DNA of 23,934 nt, taken from positions 1-23,934 of the IMG/VR virus record IMGVR_UViG_3300045135_002160. One strand, 5' to 3'. This DNA comes from a virus. This document shows positions 11,053 through 20,221 of this stretch, one piece after another; the first letter of the stretch is position 1, and each line of letters begins with the position of its first letter. The notes under the pieces are model-generated. The model searched no databases, was not told the origin of the DNA, and saw nothing but the letters and a program-made list of their open reading frames with translations. Position numbers and translations under genes: made by a program.

Positions 11053-11258
11053 TAGTCCGCAGCAAACTTGACGTCGATTCCGACACCTCCAAATATGATC
11101 ACAGCGTCCTCTGCGATGCTGTGCATCTCTTCGAACTCAGCTTCGCCAGCGGCTCCGGCCAGGTTTAACGCTGCGTCAACAAGTCGCATGAACACGTCGA
11201 TCTGCTCGTCGTGCATATCCTTAAACCCCAGTGTTTTGATGTCAGCGTTGAAGCTCAT
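11049..11258 (-). CDS. Small conserved protein after DNA polymerase
   Basis: This 69-residue protein starts at ATG 11258-11256 and overlaps the polymerase stop by four bases (ATGA), with GAGAGG upstream inside the polymerase gene. A longer reading from 11447 would run inside the polymerase gene and is rejected. The sequence is acidic and helical (MHDEQIDVFMRLVDAALNLAG), with a final hydrophobic stretch AVIIFGGVGIDVKF. Short proteins ending like this are often seen next to phage replication genes but have no known role. Its stop TAA shares bases with the TAG of the giant virion gene on the other strand. Confidence 0.6.
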   Translation of the reverse strand: MSFNADIKTLGFKDMHDEQIDVFMRLVDAALNLAGAAGEAEFEEMHSIAEDAVIIFGGVGIDVKFAADY

Positions 11259-13189
11259 TCGACCTCTCCCCAATTGTTTGGCAACCCACGCAGGGCTGGA
11301 ATATCGTCGTCGACCTTGGACGGGATCTTCAATGGAAGGCCTGTCTCCATGATCTCTTTTATCATAGCAGATTGTGCCTCGTTCTCCACGGAAAAACAGA
11401 GTTCGTCGTGAACTGTTAGCATGGGCGTGAGGCCCTCGGCAAAACAATCGGCCATCGCTTTCTTGGTTTGGTCGGCTGCCGAACCTTGGATCAGCTTGTT
11501 TAAGGCCTTGTAAGTAAAGGCTCTTTTCAGATTGTTGCCGACAGAGCCGTACTCTTTCTTAGCCTCCTCGAGCGGCAGCGGCTTGTTGTAACCAAACGTC
11601 CGAGGCTCCCACAGATGGAATCGGCAGAGTCTTCCGAGGACCGTGCGAATCTGTCCGTCCTTCTCGGCTTTCGTACTGGCAGCCGTGGCTAGCTGTTTCA
11701 CGAACGGAACTTTGTCCTGATGCTCCTCGATGATCCCCTTGGCTTCGGCGTCGGACACCCCCAGCTGGGCGGACAGCTTACCTACGCCCATGCCATACAT
11801 GATGCCAAGGTTCACAACCTTAGCCTGCTTTCTGGAAATACCCGCAATGTCCGCGACCATCTGGTGCAGATCCACGTCGTCCTTGTGGTATTCCTCGACG
11901 ATTGTATCGACCATAGGGCTGCGCATACGGTCTGGCATTGAGGCTGCGAAGTGAACCAGCAGTCGTGGTTCTTGAGACGAGTAGTCAAACGACCCCCACA
12001 TTTGCCCTTCCTCTGGAATAAACAAACCACGGATCAGTTTCTTGATGTCCGGATCGCGCGCTGGAATCTGCTGCAGGTTTGGAGACGAAGAAGAGAACCG
12101 TCCTGTGACCGTGCCACCGTCGTCACTGCGGAGTTGGTGGAACTCGGTGTGTATCCGACCCTTGTGCTCGTGCCGCAGGATGCTGTCAATAAAGGTGCTG
12201 TCCGCTTTGTCGAACTCACGCAGGCGCACAATCATCTGACACACCTCGTGCGGGTGCGCAGCCAGATACTGTTTGGTAAAAGACGGGGCGCCGGCCTCTG
12301 TCTTGGGGTACTGGAGATTGAGGGCCTCGAACACCTTTTGCACAGAGGCAGCCGCCCAAGGTTCGAGGTCCACGCCTGTCTTGTGTTTGATCTGGGACTT
12401 CAGCTCTTGGACCTTGGCCCTCAGACCGGTGCGTGCAATATCGGCTTTGTCGAGATCCACACGAACGCCGCGCATCCGCATGTCCACCATGCCGGGTATC
12501 AAGGAGGTTTCGAGGTTGAAGATGTGTGTCAGGTCTTGGCTGGAAATCTCCGTCTTGAGTCGACCCCAAAGCTTGAGGGTCATTATGGCGTCCTGTTCAC
12601 CATAGGCTCCGACATAGGCGGGAGGCAGCCGCCACATGTCCGCCTTCGGGTCGATGCCCCAGTCCTTCGCTGCGGCGCGGAGCATCTTTTCGTCCTTGCG
12701 CATGTCGATGTAGTCGCGACCCAAGTTGTTGAGGCTATAGGACCAGCGGTTCTCGTCCACAATGGCGCCGGTGATCATGGTGTCAATGATTCGCCCTTGA
12801 ACATTAACCCCCTCCGCGCGCAGCCAGCCCAAGTCGTAGGTGGCGTTGTGCATGATCTTGTCGATGTGCGGTGTGGCCATCTGTTTCTTGAGCCACTTCA
12901 TGGTCATCTTCGGGTCCAGATTGTGGCCGTTCTGGTGACGGATTGGGAAGTACCAAGCTTGGTCCCCCGCAGCGACAGCGATGCCTACGATAAACCCATC
13001 GTTTCGCGCCCAGCCTGGTCCGAGCTTTGTCAGGTTGGGATCACATGTCTCAAGGTCGACGGCGATCTGCGGATAAACCGTCAGATCTGGATATGAGGAT
13101 GGGATGTTCCAGTCGGGGACGAGTTTCTCCCCGAGGTCCAGTCTCTCGAAAAATGAAATGGTGCTCTTGTCGTTCCGGTCTCTTGCCAT
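11255..13189 (-). CDS. Family A DNA polymerase with 3'-5' exonuclease domain
   Basis: This 644-residue enzyme copies the phage genome. The proofreading domain is intact: Exo I D45-x-E47 (VDLETCD), Exo II N115...D119 (HNATYDLGW), and Exo III Y196-x-x-x-D200 (YGEQD). The polymerase domain shows T360-x-TGRFSSSSPNLQQIP, motif A at D402 (DYSSQEPR), motif B K457-VVNLGIMYG, and motif C HDE at 594-596. At the motif B position equivalent to E. coli Phe762 there is Leu461. In viral PolA surveys this substitution is linked to slower, more accurate synthesis and possibly temperate life. There is no 5'-3' exonuclease domain, as is usual in phages. The ATG at 13189 has AAGGA and GAGG upstream. It lies in the replication operon after a dNTP-metabolism pair. 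The polymerase call is near certain. Confidence 0.97.
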   Translation of the reverse strand: MARDRNDKSTISFFERLDLGEKLVPDWNIPSSYPDLTVYPQIAVDLETCDPNLTKLGPGWARNDGFIVGIAVAAGDQAWYFPIRHQNGHNLDPKMTMKWLKKQMATPHIDKIMHNATYDLGWLRAEGVNVQGRIIDTMITGAIVDENRWSYSLNNLGRDYIDMRKDEKMLRAAAKDWGIDPKADMWRLPPAYVGAYGEQDAIMTLKLWGRLKTEISSQDLTHIFNLETSLIPGMVDMRMRGVRVDLDKADIARTGLRAKVQELKSQIKHKTGVDLEPWAAASVQKVFEALNLQYPKTEAGAPSFTKQYLAAHPHEVCQMIVRLREFDKADSTFIDSILRHEHKGRIHTEFHQLRSDDGGTVTGRFSSSSPNLQQIPARDPDIKKLIRGLFIPEEGQMWGSFDYSSQEPRLLVHFAASMPDRMRSPMVDTIVEEYHKDDVDLHQMVADIAGISRKQAKVVNLGIMYGMGVGKLSAQLGVSDAEAKGIIEEHQDKVPFVKQLATAASTKAEKDGQIRTVLGRLCRFHLWEPRTFGYNKPLPLEEAKKEYGSVGNNLKRAFTYKALNKLIQGSAADQTKKAMADCFAEGLTPMLTVHDELCFSVENEAQSAMIKEIMETGLPLKIPSKVDDDIPALRGLPNNWGEVE

Positions 13190-13536: not shown

Positions 13537-13972
13537 CTACCATCACTCCTGCTTCCGTAAACATTTCCATCGACAACGCAATGTCATCCTCCCAGCGCTC
13601 AGCAAACTCAACGTCAGGCTTAGGCCAGCACACGTTCGCTACGCCCATCTGGATAATCTGTGCCGCGCACTGGGTGCAGCACGGGTGTGTGCAGAAGAGC
13701 GTTGATCCGTGGACCGAGGTCGTAGCAAAACTCAGTGCGTTCCGCTCAGCGTGCAGCACCATCTTGTATTTAATGGAGCGATCATTCAACCGCTTATGGC
13801 TGTCGACCACACCACGAGGTAGGCCGTTGTAGCCGCCAGCTACAAGCCTCCGCTTGTCGTCGAAGATTACAGCTCCGACCTTGGTACTCGGATCTTTGCT
13901 CAGCTTTGACATGTGCTTGGCCATGTCGACCGCCCAATCCCAAAGACGTCCTTCTCTAAATGCGTATGTCAT
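13526..13972 (-). CDS. dCMP deaminase
   Basis: This 148-residue cytidine/deoxycytidylate deaminase-fold protein converts dCMP to dUMP, feeding dTTP synthesis. The catalytic H74-A-E76 and the second zinc motif P-C-C99-T-Q-C102 followed by AAQIIQ are present. The residue before C99 is Cys where Pro is usual. Upstream features of the family are also seen: SKDPSTKVGAVI and GYNGLPRG, then DRSIKYKMVLHAERNA. The ATG at 13972 overlaps the helicase stop by four bases. The ribosome site is weak (AGAGG about 13 bases away), suggesting coupled translation. I see no thymidylate synthase in the window. Confidence 0.93.
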   Translation of the reverse strand: MTYAFREGRLWDWAVDMAKHMSKLSKDPSTKVGAVIFDDKRRLVAGGYNGLPRGVVDSHKRLNDRSIKYKMVLHAERNALSFATTSVHGSTLFCTHPCCTQCAAQIIQMGVANVCWPKPDVEFAERWEDDIALSMEMFTEAGVMVDVR

Positions 13973-15504
13973 AGCGGATATTTATACCTCTTGTTGCTCT
14001 CCACAACGTGGAGCTCTTTCTTCGCTCGGGTCACGCCAACGTAAAAGGCGCGGTGCTCGTCGTCCGGATACCGGCTCTCCTCACACGTCTTGGTGGTCGC
14101 CAGATACACGGCGCAGTTGTCGTCCTCGCCGCCCTTCATGGCATGAAAAGTGGAAAGCTTAATCCGTGGTGGCTTGGTGATATCCTCTCCGGAGGCCTCA
14201 ACATGCTGCAGATACAAACGCATCTCGTCGCCGAGGTTGAGAACGCGGAAGGGGTCGTAGTAACCCATGAGGTCACGCTGCGGGATCATCCCGAACTCCG
14301 CCTCCAGTTCCTCCATGCAGAGAAGGCCCATAGGATCGGCAGCCTCCAGCAGCTTTTTGGAGCCCCGCTTCACCACTGCGCGGTCACCCTGCTTTGGCAC
14401 CACCTCATACAGCTCCTGAATCAAATGCAGCTGGACGCTGTTGCCGTTGGCCAAGGACCGCCACGTCTGGATCGCTCGAGCCTGCTCTTTGCTGATCGGC
14501 GCCTGACCCTTGACAGTGTAGTAGTAACCCATGTTGCGGACCACCTTGGCCAGCTCTGTGACATAGGCGTTGGTGCGTGCCATGATCGTCCAAGAACCAC
14601 GCTCCAAAGGCAGCGAGTCCATCTCATAGTGCCATGTCACCTTTCCCTCTTCTGGTGTCGGGCGGTAGGCTTTGGGAACTCGGTCCTTGATCCTTTTGAC
14701 AATCCGCTCTCCAACCTCGAACACACGTCGCGGCAGGCGGTAGGACTGGTCCAGAATGATGCGGTTTTCTGACATCCGGATGAATTGCTTTACATCAACG
14801 CCCGTCCAGCGGTGGATGGCTTGGTCGTCGTCCCCCGCGAGCCATACCACCTCGGAGTACTGTGCCATTTTTGCAACCATCTTCCACTGCAGCGGAGTGA
14901 GATCCTGTGCTTCGTCGACGATCAGGACATCGAGGTGCCGTGGTGTGCAGTTATTGATGAACATCTCGATCATGTCGACAAAGTCCACCTTCTCGATCTT
15001 GGCTTTGTACTCGGCCAGCTGACCTTGGATTTGCTTTGCCTTGAACAGGCTCAGGTCAAAGGTGTCGTGGTCCTTCCACTCCTCCTCCAGTCCAATCATG
15101 CGGTAGCGCGCTCTGTCAATGATAGCCAAGTAGCGGCTTCCGCGGCGCAGGTCGGTCGGCACCAGCAGCCCATCCTCCGGTTTGGTGTTCACGACAAATT
15201 CCTCGCCCAGCATACGACCCAGCTCGGTGTAGTCCGCCGTGGAGAGGACCATGTCTCTGGTGATCCCCAGCTCCATGTATCCTGTGGAGTGCAGCGTTCG
15301 GAAGTTGACCAGTTGCTTTGGGTTGAGGTTGAAGCGGGTCATGGCCCGCTCCCGCGCCTCCTCAATCGACTTGCGAGAAAACGAAACAAACGCAATGCGC
15401 TCTGGTTTGATACCGCTAGCCAAAGACTTGTCGATCTCCCGCATCAGGAACTCTGTCTTGCCGCAGCCGGGTGGGCCAAAGACTTGCGTGCTGTTCTCAA
15501 TCAT
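13969..15504 (-). CDS. UvrD/Rep-type superfamily 1 DNA helicase
   Basis: I place the start at ATG 15504 (511 residues), behind GGAGGAG at good spacing. A 23-residue upstream extension from 15573 would run through the HTH gene and is rejected. All SF1 motifs are visible: Walker A G10-PPGCGKT17, Ia SFSRKSIEEAR, TLH at 70-72, motif II D197-EAQD201, motif III GDDDQ 224-228, motif IV SYR 254-256, motif V TFHAMKGGE 452-460, and motif VI YVGVTRAKK 488-496. Such enzymes are ATP-driven 3'-5' translocases. It is shorter than cellular UvrD, with reduced 1B/2B regions. No hexameric helicase is seen in the window, so this protein or the SNF2 protein may serve fork unwinding. That role is inference. Confidence 0.93.
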   Translation of the reverse strand: MIENSTQVFGPPGCGKTEFLMREIDKSLASGIKPERIAFVSFSRKSIEEARERAMTRFNLNPKQLVNFRTLHSTGYMELGITRDMVLSTADYTELGRMLGEEFVVNTKPEDGLLVPTDLRRGSRYLAIIDRARYRMIGLEEEWKDHDTFDLSLFKAKQIQGQLAEYKAKIEKVDFVDMIEMFINNCTPRHLDVLIVDEAQDLTPLQWKMVAKMAQYSEVVWLAGDDDQAIHRWTGVDVKQFIRMSENRIILDQSYRLPRRVFEVGERIVKRIKDRVPKAYRPTPEEGKVTWHYEMDSLPLERGSWTIMARTNAYVTELAKVVRNMGYYYTVKGQAPISKEQARAIQTWRSLANGNSVQLHLIQELYEVVPKQGDRAVVKRGSKKLLEAADPMGLLCMEELEAEFGMIPQRDLMGYYDPFRVLNLGDEMRLYLQHVEASGEDITKPPRIKLSTFHAMKGGEDDNCAVYLATTKTCEESRYPDDEHRAFYVGVTRAKKELHVVESNKRYKYPL

Positions 15505-15691
15505 CTTTGCTCTCCTCCAACCAGGTGTTGATCTCCTCGAGGCGCCAGCGCAGCGTTCCCTTTTGCCCGCCAAGCCGGAGCGGCTTTGGCATACGGTCTT
15601 CCTTGATCCATTTGTAGAGAGCCGCCGGCGTCACATCCAGATACTCGGCCAGCTCCCGCACGGTAATAAGCTTTGCACTAGAATGGGACAT
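15497..15691 (-). CDS. AlpA/excisionase-like helix-turn-helix protein
   Basis: This 64-residue protein starts at ATG 15691 with GAGGAGA upstream, overlapping the primase end by 14 bases and the helicase start by 8. The sequence ITVRELAEYLDVTPAALYKWIKEDRMPKPLRLGG, then LRWRLEEINTWLEE, is the MerR-like winged HTH layout (HTH_17) of AlpA regulators and phage Xis proteins. It should bind DNA. Possible roles are excisionase or recombination directionality factor, transcription regulator, or replication initiator accessory. Its position inside the replication operon favours the latter two, but no integrase is visible to decide. Confidence 0.85.
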   Translation of the reverse strand: MSHSSAKLITVRELAEYLDVTPAALYKWIKEDRMPKPLRLGGQKGTLRWRLEEINTWLEESKDD

Positions 15692-17213
15692 TGTTGTCTA
15701 TCTCCTCTACACCCAAATCTATATCATCCTCCTCAAACTCCGGCACCCACCACACTCGAACCCCGGCCCACTGACCTTTGGCGTTCTTGTAGCGCTCACG
15801 GCCAGAGCAGGCTTCATTGCTGTTGAGGCGTTTGATCTCCTCTTGGATCTTGGCCCTGTTGTCCGACCACGGGTGGTTGCGGTTGCGCAGGAAGTTGGCC
15901 AGACCATCCATCTTGAACTTGACCTTGTGGTCGTCATGCCACGGCTTCCCTGTCTCAAGCTCTGCTGCATCGTAGGCCTGAGCGCTGCCGTTGCAGTAGC
16001 TCTTGAGTAGATCCTCGAACTGCCCTGTGATCGTCAGCTCGCGTGGCACCTCCTGATAGGTGGCTTGAGACAGGAGCTTGTTGACAGAGGACGTCCAGTC
16101 CTGCTGTTTCATAGTTGCAGGCATGAAGCTGATCTGCGCAAGGCAGGCCTTCTGCCACAGGGATTGGTTATGAAGCTGGTCGACGGTGAGCTCCACACGC
16201 TTCCCGTTCACCACCATGAAGAACAGACGCGGCTCGGACAACACAACAGTCAGTCCCCCTACCTGCGCCTTGTCTTCGCTGTCGCCTCCGATCCCAAACT
16301 TTTTGGTGCGGCACAGATCCTTGTCACACACTGAGCAGAAAGGTTCGATGTTGCACGTTGGACCATAGTCCTTTTTCTGCAGCTGCTTGATGATGCCCAG
16401 CATCTCTTTCGAGTCCAAGGCCGGCGCCATGAACGTGCGGTTATACTCCTCAACCACCTGCTCCCAGTTGTCGGGATACTTGCGGCGGGCATACCAGCCC
16501 ATTTGAAACATGGTGTTGTTGCGCATATCACCAACGGTGCCGGTGGCAACGAGGATACGAAGGCAGGGCGGACCGTCCAGGAAATGCTCCTTAGAGCCGG
16601 CCAGGTCCAACGCATCGAGGTCAACCTGCGACACGCGGCTCCGGTCCACTAGGTCCAAGAACTCCTCGAGCTCCAGCGCCTCGGCATTCTGATCGAACGC
16701 GTAACGCGTTGTCTGCTCCGCGTCGAAGTATGGCATGTTAATAAAGTTGCCGAGATCACCACGCTCAGCTAACAAACTGTCCTGTTTGGGAAATATCTCG
16801 CAACCCGAGAACCCCAAAGCAATGGACATCTCAATCAGGTGCTCACGCACGACAGCTGCCTCATACCATTCTGTCAGAAACAAGTAGAGGTGCGCGCCGC
16901 CAGACTTGGTGCGGCAGTGTATCAGCGGAAGCTTGAGCCTTCGGATCTTTTTCTGCAGCTCTTTGTGGTCGAGGTCATAGACGTCAATGTCCAACGCCCC
17001 GAACCGGCATGTGTTATCTGTGTTGATCGGTATTGACCCGACGCCTTGCTTGCCTTCGATGTGCCGCTGCACCATGTCCGTGGTCATCACACCGCGCTTC
17101 ACGAAGCTCTTGGCATCTGCCTTGCCCTTGCGGCCAATGGCGCCGACCGTAGTCTCACCGTAGCCCGCCTTCGATCCCTCAAAGGCAGCCAGTAATCTCT
17201 CTGCTAAAGACAT
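15678..17213 (-). CDS. Archaeo-eukaryotic-type primase (TOTE-like primase / primase-polymerase)
   Basis: This 511-residue protein starts at ATG 17213 behind AGGAG. The N-terminal AEP catalytic domain has motif I D75-I-D77 (ALDIDVYD), motif II S104-GGAH108-LYLF, and motif III around E139-IFPKQD145 followed by NFINMPYFD. This matches the TOTE conflict system primase family. A four-Cys cluster (C287, C293, C296, C301) leads into KKFGIGGD, a zinc element seen in phage primases. Residues 230-285 resemble the PriCT-type helical segment. The C-terminus is acidic and ends EEIDNNVPF, like the bacterial SSB tip. It should make RNA or DNA primers and may also extend them. It lies between the SSB-like protein and the HTH/helicase pair. 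Confidence 0.85.
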   Translation of the reverse strand: MSLAERLLAAFEGSKAGYGETTVGAIGRKGKADAKSFVKRGVMTTDMVQRHIEGKQGVGSIPINTDNTCRFGALDIDVYDLDHKELQKKIRRLKLPLIHCRTKSGGAHLYLFLTEWYEAAVVREHLIEMSIALGFSGCEIFPKQDSLLAERGDLGNFINMPYFDAEQTTRYAFDQNAEALELEEFLDLVDRSRVSQVDLDALDLAGSKEHFLDGPPCLRILVATGTVGDMRNNTMFQMGWYARRKYPDNWEQVVEEYNRTFMAPALDSKEMLGIIKQLQKKDYGPTCNIEPFCSVCDKDLCRTKKFGIGGDSEDKAQVGGLTVVLSEPRLFFMVVNGKRVELTVDQLHNQSLWQKACLAQISFMPATMKQQDWTSSVNKLLSQATYQEVPRELTITGQFEDLLKSYCNGSAQAYDAAELETGKPWHDDHKVKFKMDGLANFLRNRNHPWSDNRAKIQEEIKRLNSNEACSGRERYKNAKGQWAGVRVWWVPEFEEDDIDLGVEEIDNNVPF

Positions 17214-17238
17214 CTTGAACTCCTAGTGGATGGGGTGT

Positions 17239-17260
17239 GAGGGAGGCCGCAGCCTCCCTC
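17239..17260 (-). promoter_or_regulatory. Nine-bp stem-loop with UNCG-type loop between SSB and primase genes
   Basis: GAGGGAGGC (17239-17247) and GCCTCCCTC (17252-17260) are perfect inverted repeats around four bases. In the minus-strand transcript the loop reads UGCG closed by C-G, the extra-stable cUNCGg class. It lies between the stop of the SSB-like gene and the primase start. No U-run follows, so it is not a standard terminator. It may protect the 3' end of a processed SSB transcript or attenuate read-through. Confidence 0.6.
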
Positions 17261-17276
17261 GGTGACGCTGCCGCTC

Positions 17277-18077
17277 TTAGAACGGGATATCGTCGTCCCT
17301 GTCCACGGAAGACCCAGACGTCTGGGCTGGATCCTCTTCGGGTGCGGCTTTGACCTCACCCGCCGCGATACTGTCACGGAAGGCCTTGGCCTCAAGCATC
17401 AGGTCGCGATCTTCTACGAGGCCGAGCGCCTCGACTTGCCAGTTGCTCCACGAACCTTGGTCGTTGGACTCCTCGACGGAGTAGAGACGCCATGTTGTGG
17501 CGAAGACCGGTGGTGTGAACAGCTGCCCGGACTTCGGGTGCTTGATCTTTTTCATGGAGATCTGGGTCTTCCAGCGGCGGGACACCTTCAAGCCCGTGGA
17601 CTTCATGTCGATAACCACTGGCTGGAAGCTGCCGTCCTCCTCGACCACCAAGCAGAAGTGCTGATCAGACTTCACAAGCTCATTACCGTTGGGCAGAATC
17701 TCTTTTGATCCAGAGCGTGTTGTCTGCTGCAGCAGCGAGCTGTTGGAGGGTATCTCACCCTTGAAGCCACCACCCATGTCACGAGGAACAAACTCCAGGT
17801 ACTTTGTGGTCTGGAAGCAAGGAACCACTGTGATGCCTTTCTCCCCGTCCCAATACTGGCCGGTCACGTTATTGAACGCGTCCCCGCTGGAGGCACCCTC
17901 GATGAACTCGGATTTCTTTTTGTTGAGCTGCGGGCTCAACGGTTGCAGCAGACGCACAAACGGGATCTGCATCTCGCTGCTGTCAAAGGCTGTGCCTTCT
18001 CCAGCGTGCTCGAAGATGTCGTCCATGACCTCAGTTGAAATGGACGTGTCTTTTGCTTTGGTTACAGCGGTGCTCAT
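17277..18077 (-). CDS. Single-stranded DNA-binding protein (phage type, SSB-Ct tail)
   Basis: This 266-residue protein starts at ATG 18077, overlapping the previous TAA by one base (TAATG), with AAAGGAAA upstream. The centre is beta-rich (GITVVPCFQTTKYLEFVPRD, DQHFCLVVEEDGSFQPVVIDM, TWRLYSVEES). Residues about 225-260 are a disordered Pro/Ala/Ser linker, and the protein ends D-x-DDDIPF266, identical in its last six residues to the E. coli SSB tip. That tip recruits replication and repair partners. The OB fold is not obvious by eye, so the SSB call rests on the tail, the size and the replication operon. It is probably expressed at high level, as a stem-loop separates it from the primase gene. 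Confidence 0.75.
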   Translation of the reverse strand: MSTAVTKAKDTSISTEVMDDIFEHAGEGTAFDSSEMQIPFVRLLQPLSPQLNKKKSEFIEGASSGDAFNNVTGQYWDGEKGITVVPCFQTTKYLEFVPRDMGGGFKGEIPSNSSLLQQTTRSGSKEILPNGNELVKSDQHFCLVVEEDGSFQPVVIDMKSTGLKVSRRWKTQISMKKIKHPKSGQLFTPPVFATTWRLYSVEESNDQGSWSNWQVEALGLVEDRDLMLEAKAFRDSIAAGEVKAAPEEDPAQTSGSSVDRDDDIPF

Positions 18078-18637
18078 TATGCTTTCCTTTTAATTTCTGC
18101 AGCGTTTGCGATGAAGGCCCCGAACAGATCGAGGTCAATAGGCTTACCGTTCTCGATGCGCTCTTTCACGAACGCCTTGAGTGTGGATGGGTGGATATGG
18201 GTCTTGGTCTTGGGGTCGAACCCACGCTCCTGCAGCAGACCAACGACGTCGCCCGCCACGTTGTCTTCACCCCTGCCAAACGACACGGTGATGTCGTTCT
18301 TGATGATGTCATCAAGCCCGTTGTCACGCAGCCAGCTGAACGCTTCGTCCTTGTTGGCTGCTGGGATAGAGGCGTGAACCATCATCTTGCGAGAGACAGT
18401 CACACCGTCGACATCCAGCCGATCCACGCCCATCTCGTCCATCAATGCTGGGATGTTTTCAACGGAGAGCTTGTGCTTCTCCTGCTTCAAAGCTTTGACA
18501 TGGTCTTCGGCGTCGGCGATCTCTTTCTCGACCGAGCGAAGCTTCCTGACCAAATCGCTGAGGGTTTTTCCGGTGGCGGTATTCACATCACCGAGAGCAC
18601 CGGCCTCGTCGAAGATGTCGTCAAATAAGTCAGTCAT
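18077..18637 (-). CDS. Conserved coiled-coil phage protein, first gene of replication operon
   Basis: I choose ATG 18637 (186 residues), which has GGAG upstream and an acidic start MTDLFDDIFDEAG. An extension to 18712 would fill the divergent promoter gap. Residues about 25-65 form a heptad-like helix (LSDLVRKLRSVEKEIADAEDHVKALKQE). A beta-rich region follows (VDRLDVDGVTVSRKMMVHASIP). The end has a signature I have seen in other phages: HIHPSTLKAFVKERIENGKPIDLDLFGAFIANAAEIKRK. The role is not known to me. Leading the operon just ahead of the SSB suggests a DNA-binding or SSB/nuclease-modulating function, but no catalytic motif is seen. Confidence 0.65.
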   Translation of the reverse strand: MTDLFDDIFDEAGALGDVNTATGKTLSDLVRKLRSVEKEIADAEDHVKALKQEKHKLSVENIPALMDEMGVDRLDVDGVTVSRKMMVHASIPAANKDEAFSWLRDNGLDDIIKNDITVSFGRGEDNVAGDVVGLLQERGFDPKTKTHIHPSTLKAFVKERIENGKPIDLDLFGAFIANAAEIKRKA

Positions 18638-18715
18638 AAGTTTCTCCACTTCTGGGTTGCTTGTGGCCAGCTTGTTTGCTAACCATAAGGGGGAGACTAG
18701 AGAAAGGATCAACCA
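18638..18715. promoter_or_regulatory. Divergent intergenic region, probable back-to-back promoters
   Basis: These 78 bp separate the leftward replication operon from the rightward SNF2/lysis block, so both must start near here or read through from elsewhere. No consensus promoter is clear. The best rightward candidate is TTGTGG (18661-18666) with CATAAG (18684-18689) at 17-bp spacing, which is weak. The right end holds AAAGGA, the ribosome site for the GTG start at 18716. Confidence 0.35.
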
Positions 18716-20221
18716 GTGTCAACAGATTTCTTTAAGACTAAACCCTATCAACACCAGATGGAGGACTTTCCATTTAAGCTGCCGCCCTATGCACACCAAA
18801 TGGAAGCGGTGGCGAAAAGCTGGGACCGAGAGGGTTACGCTTTCTTGGCCGACATGGGAACAGGAAAAAGCAAGATGTTGATCGACACTCTCGGTATGCT
18901 TCACCTCAATGACTTGGTCGACTTCGCCTTAATCATTGCACCGAAAGGGGTGTTTCGGAACTGGCCTGAAAAGGAACTGCCTGAGCACATGTCGGATGCG
19001 GTGAACCATCGCGTGATTCGGTGGTCGTCAAACGCCGGCAAAAAGGCACGCGAGGAAATGTCTTCTGTTAAAGATAAATTTGACGGGCTGACGGTGTTTG
19101 TCATGAACGTCGAGGCTTTCTCTTCTGTGAAAGGTCGCAACGCCGGGGAGTGGATGGCAAAACACTTTGGTCCGCGCGGCTTGATCGCTATCGACGAGAG
19201 CACAACAATAAAAAACCCAAAGGCAAAACGAACCAAGGCGCTCACCAAGATCGCGGCAGGGTTCAAGTATCGTCGCGCACTTACGGGATCACCTGTGTCC
19301 AACAGTCCGATGGACGTCTATTCTCAGTTTGAGTTTCTCGGACCTCGGCTCTTGGGTTACGACTCTTTCTACGCCTTTCAGGGGCGATACGCTGTCACAC
19401 AGCGCCGTAAAATGGGGGCCCACAGCTTCGATCAGATTGTCGGCTACCGCAATATAGAGGAGCTGACATCCAGGATCGACCAGCACGCTTACCGCGTGCG
19501 GAAGGAGGACTGCCTCGACCTACCCGACCGGGTGTTCACCACACGCCTTGTCCCCCTGTCTCCAGATCAGTTTAAGATGTATGAGCAGCTTCGCACCATG
19601 GCAATGACGATGCTCGAAGGTGGGGAGCTGGTCACCGCTCCTGCCGTCATCACGCAGCTCCTGCGGATGCAGCAAGTTTTATGTGGCCACCTGCAGACAG
19701 ACGACGGTGAGCTGAAAACCTTTCCATGCCCGCGCTTAGATGCCGCGATTGAGATTGCTCAAGAATCAAGTGGGAAAGTAATCTACTTTGCACGGTTCCG
19801 CTACGACATCCAACAAATTGTGGAGCGTCTGAAAAAAGAGTTCGGTGAGCACTCAGCTGCAGCCTACTACGGCGACACAACTGCTGACGAACGCAGCCAG
19901 ATCATGAAGGACTTTCAAAACCCCGACCACCCCCTTCGTTTCTTTGTGGGCAATCCTGCTACAGCAGGGTACGGCCTCACACTCACGCAGGCCAAGACCA
20001 CTGTATTCTACAGCAATTCATTCTCCTTGGAGCAAAGGATACAAGCGCAGGACAGAAACTACCGTATCGGGCAGGATCAGAAAGTTCTCTACATTGACCT
20101 AATGAGTGATGGTACAATAGACGAGCATATTGTGCAGTCTCTGAAGAACAAAATCGACCTAAGCGCAAAAGTCTTGGGTGAAGAGGCCATGAAGTGGTTG
20201 AGCCTCAAGCCGTCGAAGTGA
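18716..20221 (+). CDS. SNF2-type superfamily 2 helicase/translocase
   Basis: The start is GTG 18716 with AAAGGA seven bases ahead, giving 501 residues. SF2 motifs are Walker A 46-DMGTGKS-52, motif Ia with LIIAPKGVFRNW, motif II D160-EST (DES in place of DEAH, common in phage SNF2 proteins), motif III TGSPV at 190-194, and motif VI QAQDRNYRIGQ at 443-453. It resembles small phage SNF2 enzymes that translocate on duplex DNA and may act in replication, recombination or anti-restriction. A Q-motif-like segment PYxHQME is duplicated at residues 10-16 and 24-30. It stands alone on the plus strand, divergent from the other replication genes. The helicase call is secure; the biological role is inference. 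Confidence 0.93.
   Translation: MSTDFFKTKPYQHQMEDFPFKLPPYAHQMEAVAKSWDREGYAFLADMGTGKSKMLIDTLGMLHLNDLVDFALIIAPKGVFRNWPEKELPEHMSDAVNHRVIRWSSNAGKKAREEMSSVKDKFDGLTVFVMNVEAFSSVKGRNAGEWMAKHFGPRGLIAIDESTTIKNPKAKRTKALTKIAAGFKYRRALTGSPVSNSPMDVYSQFEFLGPRLLGYDSFYAFQGRYAVTQRRKMGAHSFDQIVGYRNIEELTSRIDQHAYRVRKEDCLDLPDRVFTTRLVPLSPDQFKMYEQLRTMAMTMLEGGELVTAPAVITQLLRMQQVLCGHLQTDDGELKTFPCPRLDAAIEIAQESSGKVIYFARFRYDIQQIVERLKKEFGEHSAAAYYGDTTADERSQIMKDFQNPDHPLRFFVGNPATAGYGLTLTQAKTTVFYSNSFSLEQRIQAQDRNYRIGQDQKVLYIDLMSDGTIDEHIVQSLKNKIDLSAKVLGEEAMKWLSLKPSK

Follow-up and report, generated by a model that had tools for sequence, protein, structure and literature searches.

Why should two neighbouring replication proteins of one virus both end in the acidic Pro-Phe tip of bacterial single-stranded DNA-binding proteins (SSBs)? 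The question is raised by a 23.9-kb virus record (IMG/VR IMGVR_UViG_3300045135_002160, analysed over its whole length and referred to here as the window), on the minus strand of which an SSB-like protein and an adjacent archaeo-eukaryotic primase (AEP) end DDDIPF and NNVPF, respectively. Both open reading frames (ORFs) and both ends had been pointed out in an initial annotation of the sequence, and these are borne out. The two tips prove to be strongly conserved and to co-evolve, as a tendency; judged from sequence, the tip-pair arrangement is found across a large and diverse phage group. The features concerned are the following:

15678..17213, minus strand: AEP primase, 511 amino acids (PF22548; phrog_21866 'primase'; AlphaFold2 predicted local distance difference test score, pLDDT, 90)
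15681..15740, minus strand: acidic, low-confidence tail of the primase, residues 492-511 (pLDDT 50-69; net acidic in 86% of the clusters defined below)
15681..15695, minus strand: primase tip NNVPF (F511 nearly invariant in a 115-sequence alignment)
17277..18077, minus strand: SSB-like protein, 266 amino acids, Pam3_Gp34 family (PF23977; phrog_2402; AlphaFold2 pLDDT 90)
17280..17357, minus strand: disordered, hypervariable tail of the SSB-like protein, residues 241-266 (pLDDT 52-71; column statistics)
17280..17297, minus strand: SSB tip DDDIPF

Conservation of the two tips

The tips of the SSB-like protein and the primase are confirmed as real and strongly conserved tails of the docking type, with docking itself predicted. 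The primase ends ...FEEDDIDLGVEEIDNNVPF and the SSB-like protein ...SSVDRDDDIPF, and both tails are predicted to be flexible in the AlphaFold2 models. Variation of the primase C terminus among close homologues had been named beforehand as the observation that would speak against an SSB-type tip; however, 72 of the 73 distinct close homologues (50-82% identity) end in PF, nearly all of them as [DE][IV]PF. Loss of the tip in some close relatives was considered and rejected, the single case (L112) being a frameshift with NDDDKIPF present in another frame. This frameshift (L112:2788-4533) carries the primase frame past the tip into a helix-turn-helix (HTH) gene and represents either an assembly error or a real fusion. 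The SSB-like protein terminates in IPF in 77 of 78 homologues, behind a hypervariable linker. A few contigs resembling ct3Et533 (L231, L247, and L278) encode an SSB-like protein that ends RRR or FRR rather than in an acidic tip.

Chance or composition as the source of the PF tips is ruled out by the background rates: among 1221 non-homologous ORFs of at least 250 amino acids in the same loci, F ends occur at 2.0% and PF ends at 0.16%, and none carries an acidic PF tip. A sample of 340 distinct SSB-like/primase genome pairs was grouped into 92 clusters at 70% primase identity, and across these, in either protein, the two end positions (-1 and -2) vary less than any others among the final 25. 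PF-type tips were not found in the neighbouring UvrD, PolA, SNF2, and gp33-like proteins. A third tip-bearing protein was sought in these loci and none was found; the UvrD-like helicase of the window (13969-15504) and its homologues possess a conserved C-terminal Y-x-[IL], the last residue being I or L in 49 of 56 clusters, and this end is unlike the tips.

Co-evolution of the two tips

Tip types vary between lineages and tend to agree within a genome, with SSB-like/primase pairs of PF/PF, PY/PY, IV/IV, II/II, and EF/EF. Among more distant relatives, which have other ends, the named ones carry ENIPF/KGSPF (DSL-LC04), DIPFA/PPPFV (ct3Et533), HSEF/KAEF (Kokobel2), and QDIV/ENIV (HTVC027P); five further contigs carry PY pairs (KQPY/EAPY, EAPY/ETPY, EAPY/EDPY, KTPY/EEPY, and MPY/EPY), and another two carry aliphatic pairs (KSII/TDII and KDII/EDIV). 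The commonest combinations among the 92 clusters are PF/PF (37), xF/xF (10), PY/PY (5), and aliphatic/aliphatic (4), with the last two residues identical in 46 clusters and the last residue in 61.

Because shared ancestry accounts for part of this match, primase tips were shuffled only inside clades. The raw match, at z of about 9, falls to about 3, with p about 0.001-0.003, after clade stratification, and permutation of the last 2-4 residues with strata at 40-50% identity yields z values of 2.7-3.8 (p 0.0004-0.003). Pagel-type likelihood tests of correlated evolution, for which a 175-tip tree was computed with the tails left out, return p values of 7e-5 for a proline-plus-aromatic end, 8e-5 for a terminal Y, and 0.002 for a terminal F; the first version of the test had given 0.003. 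Under the same shuffle, neither SSB nor primase tips matched the tails of UvrD, PolA, gp33-like, or SNF2 proteins (z -1.1 to 1.1). The tips of the SSB-like protein and the primase thus co-evolve, as a tendency.

An artefact—whether chance PF ends or common descent of linked genes alone—is highly improbable: much of the raw match does reflect shared ancestry, as the fall in z indicates, but the background PF rate is low, the stratified and tree-based tests stay significant, and linked neighbouring proteins display no such match. Co-evolution also bears on the possibility that the primase tail acts as a switch on the primase itself by covering the DNA-binding cleft of the enzyme; no receptor would then be shared, and the likeness to an SSB tip would be convergence on a generic acidic-plus-aromatic design. 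The primase tail is acidic throughout, and the title of a work cited in PMC5686142 has the tail of T7 gp2.5 competing with DNA for the binding surface; from such a switch, however, joint change of primase and SSB tips, rare Y ends included, would not be expected, and it is considered distinctly improbable.

Phage tips and host SSB tips

The tails could alternatively dock host SSB-interacting proteins (PriA, HolC chi, RecO, DnaG, and others) and so bring them to phage forks, as the initial annotation had suggested. In favour of this, tips in the window's own clade lie near the bacterial consensus DDDIPF. Five single-cell genomes (SAR11, alphaproteobacterial, and flavobacterial) contain such a phage contig, although the contig-to-cell assignment has its own error. 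Their host SSBs end DDEIPF, DDDIPF, DEDIPF, or DDDLPF, whereas the phage pairs in the same assemblies are QPY/APY, APY/TPY, APY/DPY, VPY/DAF, or DII/DIV. Moreover, HTVC027P and HTVC023P, which both infect strain HTCC1062, differ from each other, their SSB-like proteins ending in DIV and SVPF, respectively. The phage tips depart from the host tip yet match each other; therefore, they follow each other and not the host, and these sequences fit a receptor of both tips that evolves with the phage. As a general function, recruitment of host partners by both tips is not supported, given this divergence from host SSB ends that stay D[DE][DE][IL]PF-like, and we regard it as improbable. The DDDIPF tip of the window is itself host-like, and a host partner may be possible for it.

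Further points in favour of host docking come from AEP primase-helicases in alphaproteobacterial genomes that lack an adjoining phage SSB:

L491:5986-8244, L510:5950-8682, L515:5845-8043, also L504 and L514: tip-bearing AEP primase-helicases (AEP-TOTE with PriCT_1 and/or DUF5906)

These five end DDEDIPF, DEDIPF, DEDLPF, DEIPF, and DDDVPF, and the SSBs of their hosts end DDEIPF. An integrase-like gene lies near at least two of them (L510 and L515, from a reading of the ORFs). The likeness suggests that element primases copy the host SSB tip, possibly in mimicry of host SSB. A class-wide search for element primases returned few relatives; beyond the query, one has an acidic Pro-Phe end (L539, GDDGSPF), and most are tipless.

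A general rule can be framed from both groups, in which AEP primases of viruses and mobile elements would each carry a copy of the tip of their own partner SSB, evolving in step with it. Phage primases would copy the phage SSB tip (PF, PY, II/IV, or EF) for a phage pocket, and the primase-helicases of integrating elements, which would depend on the SSB of the host, would copy the host tip (DDEDIPF) for host SSB partners. The element part of this rule is drawn from the five sequences together with L539, and the rule as a whole is possible but doubtful. If true, the tip would serve as a common key with which primase and SSB could swap places at one replisome site.

Identity of the two proteins

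Beyond their tails, the two proteins contain the following parts:

16593..17213, minus strand: AEP Prim-Pol domain, CAPP-like, primase residues 1-207 (7nqf profile E 2.7e-13)
16311..16355, minus strand: cysteine cluster, primase residues 287-301, with invariant C287, C296, and C301 (probable zinc site)
15741..16049, minus strand: probable winged-helix domain, primase residues ~389-491, directly before the tail (weak likeness, Z ~6, to PadR/LmrR-type regulators)
17358..17972, minus strand: folded core of the SSB-like protein, residues 36-240 (AlphaFold2 model and structure matches)

From its profile and model, the 511-residue protein is an AEP primase of the AEP-TOTE/CAPP-like kind, with primer synthesis predicted. 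The AEP-TOTE profile PF22548 matches it above the cut-off (E 3.1e-15), its AlphaFold2 model aligns with the CAPP Prim-Pol structure 7nqf at Z 20.5 over 190 residues, and the catalytic residues D75, D77, and H108 are invariant in 115 sequences. The catalytic fold is thus shared with CAPP and AEP-TOTE; the rest of the phage primase differs.

The SSB-like protein scores 221 bits against the Pam3_Gp34 profile PF23977 (cut-off 27), which is the sole profile reported for it at E values up to 0.001. Since a match to PF00436, the bacterial-type SSB profile, is absent, the protein is not filed with the bacterial-type SSBs; it does possess one bacterial-SSB feature, namely a flexible linker followed by an acidic Pro-Phe C-terminal tip. 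Sequence searches with the family found no match among solved structures, and Foldseek alone found no significant match to the model in the PDB. Among solved structures, the phiC31 recombination directionality factor comes closest (9teh, Z 8.5), followed by the T4/RB69 gp32 core (Z 6.4-6.5 over ~150 residues) and several SSBs (Z 3-4). That the phiC31 factor outranks gp32 in fold likeness comes without detectable sequence similarity. With Pam3_Gp34 as the family and the phiC31 factor and gp32 cores as the nearest folds, the label 'SSB-like', with a candidate OB-type fold of the gp32 kind and predicted single-stranded DNA binding, is reasonable but unproven.

Tails in other replication systems

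In the open-access papers searched, none was found that deals with an SSB-type tip on the primase of a phage, and the pairing of SSB-like and primase tips appears undescribed there. The earlier remark that no description of the pairing is known is to be qualified in one respect: phage T7 offers a precedent, for its SSB gp2.5 ends DGDF, its primase-helicase gp4 ends DTDF, and an interaction of each tail with the polymerase gp5 has been reported. For gp4, the binding is to basic patches of gp5 (PMC12593628); the tail of gp2.5 has been implicated in binding both gp5 and gp4 (PMC5686142). As in T7, the SSB and primase of one phage each possess an acidic tail that ends in a hydrophobic residue (aromatic in T7), and the same phage encodes a family-A polymerase. 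Unlike gp4, the primase of the window's group is an AEP Prim-Pol to which no helicase is fused; the SSB-like protein belongs to a different family from gp2.5, and the tips are of the bacterial SSB C-terminal (SSB-Ct) type, with Pro-Phe. Co-evolution of the tips was here measured over a phage-wide sample, and the docking partner is a candidate only, again unlike T7. By this comparison, the arrangement is a variant of the T7 paired-tail kind, assembled from unrelated proteins with bacterial-type tips.

The terminal motif of the bacterial SSB-Ct (DDDIPF) is the same as that on the SSB-like protein and nearly the same as that on the primase. In bacteria, enzymes such as DnaG primase are described in PMC5872125 as receptors of the SSB tip; by contrast, the primase in the window's group bears a tip of its own, and the phage tips drift from the host consensus. 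Human PrimPol provides a further parallel: this AEP primase is recruited through an acidic-hydrophobic motif in its C-terminal region, in which an Asp and a Phe are key and which binds RPA70N at its basic cleft (PMC5457501). Its receptor is nonetheless the SSB itself (RPA), and the motif is internal and helical rather than a terminal Pro-Phe.

A proposed shared docking site

The candidates for a docking site lie within the replication module, which is a single minus-strand run of genes for the gp33-like protein, the SSB-like protein, the primase, a small HTH protein, the UvrD-like helicase, a dCMP deaminase, and the family-A polymerase; an SNF2 helicase gene adjoins the run on the opposite strand:

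11255..13189, minus strand: family-A DNA polymerase, PolA (PF00476; co-occurs with the tips; preferred candidate for the shared docking site)
13969..15504, minus strand: UvrD-like SF1 helicase (PF00580; alternative docking-site candidate)
15497..15691, minus strand: small HTH protein between helicase and primase (PF12728)
18077..18712, minus strand: Pam3 gp33-like protein, directly upstream of the SSB-like gene (PF23984)
18716..20221, plus strand: SNF2-type helicase beside the module (PF00176)

Joint change of both tips suggests two tags that take turns in one pocket of the phage replication machinery, and the earlier proposal that the tips compete for, or bridge, the same docking site is consistent with their co-evolution. 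What we infer is that both tails share one phage-encoded pocket, most likely on PolA, and that this serves primer hand-off; the proposal is tentative, standing at nearly an even chance. On this view, the C-terminal tags of the two proteins (DDDIPF and NNVPF in the window) would be exchangeable for docking, each being a flexible acidic tail closed by a hydrophobic residue, and a single pocket on PolA, as in T7, would receive either. Many copies of SSB would hold the polymerase on the template via this pocket. The primase, tethered by the same type of tag, would occupy it once a primer has been made, so that the primer end is passed to the polymerase, after which SSB would reoccupy the pocket. 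As the pocket drifts in each phage lineage, both tags would have to follow, and hence would change together.

PolA is preferred as the site with modest confidence, because of the T7 precedent and its presence in 17 of the 18 AEP-primase records that were searched whole, the exception being a 29.7-kb fragment. A UvrD-type helicase occurs in all 18. A clamp-loader subunit was found in only two, Nanhaivirus R5C and Pan1, both with tipless primases. The Nanhaivirus relatives (L141, L436, L542, and L543; R5C and Pan1) have a clamp-loader-like subunit of their own, to which Pan1 adds an annotated clamp. In phages resembling HTVC023P (L437:1361-2926; L507:6007-7575), the primase gene overlaps the helicase start, and the primase tip is not recognisable while the SSB tip is kept. 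The idea that tip loss accompanies a clamp loader holds for R5C and Pan1, fails for HTVC023P, and is not a rule.

Several observations weigh against one PolA pocket shared by both tails. HTVC023P encodes PolA but has no recognisable primase tip and no clamp loader. SSB-like proteins of Pbunavirus and Myosmarvirus keep the terminal F without PolA or UvrD; therefore, PolA is not the sole SSB partner in all lineages. Aliphatic ends taken alone give a non-significant result in the correlated-evolution test (p 0.09). Under strict parsimony, both tip classes change at once on just 2 branches, with 0.7 expected, set against 23 SSB-only and 14 primase-only changes; the matching is therefore statistical, a tendency and not strict. 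Branch-by-branch co-change being weak, the conclusion that the tips co-evolve is based on the stratified and likelihood tests.

The main rival to PolA as the pocket site is the core of the SSB-like protein. Here, the SSB tail would fold onto its own or a neighbour's DNA-binding groove, and the primase tail would mimic it, thereby recruiting the primase to SSB-coated DNA. In most lineages the SSB-like and primase genes lie side by side, and each tip co-evolves with the other alone, both of which speak for such a pocket; so do the tails of Enc34, DUF2815 proteins, and T7 gp2.5, which sit in the groove of a neighbouring molecule (PMC5686142), and, by analogy, the docking of PrimPol on RPA70N. However, the primase tip has been lost with the SSB tip kept in at least two lineages (R5C/Pan1, and HTVC023P with the L503/L507/L511 group), and the SSB tip is therefore not there for the sake of the primase. 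A pocket on the SSB-like core is considered unlikely, and one on PolA remains the preferred site.

Implications

Docking through SSB tips is a code that has been studied well, one that SSB owns and that primases such as DnaG read. A primase family with its own co-evolving copy of the tip would make primer hand-off at phage forks testable by short peptides. Paired tips would, in addition, give a sequence signature that links primases to their SSB and points to the pocket, and the paired-tail arrangement of T7 would be shown to have been built from unrelated proteins in other phages.

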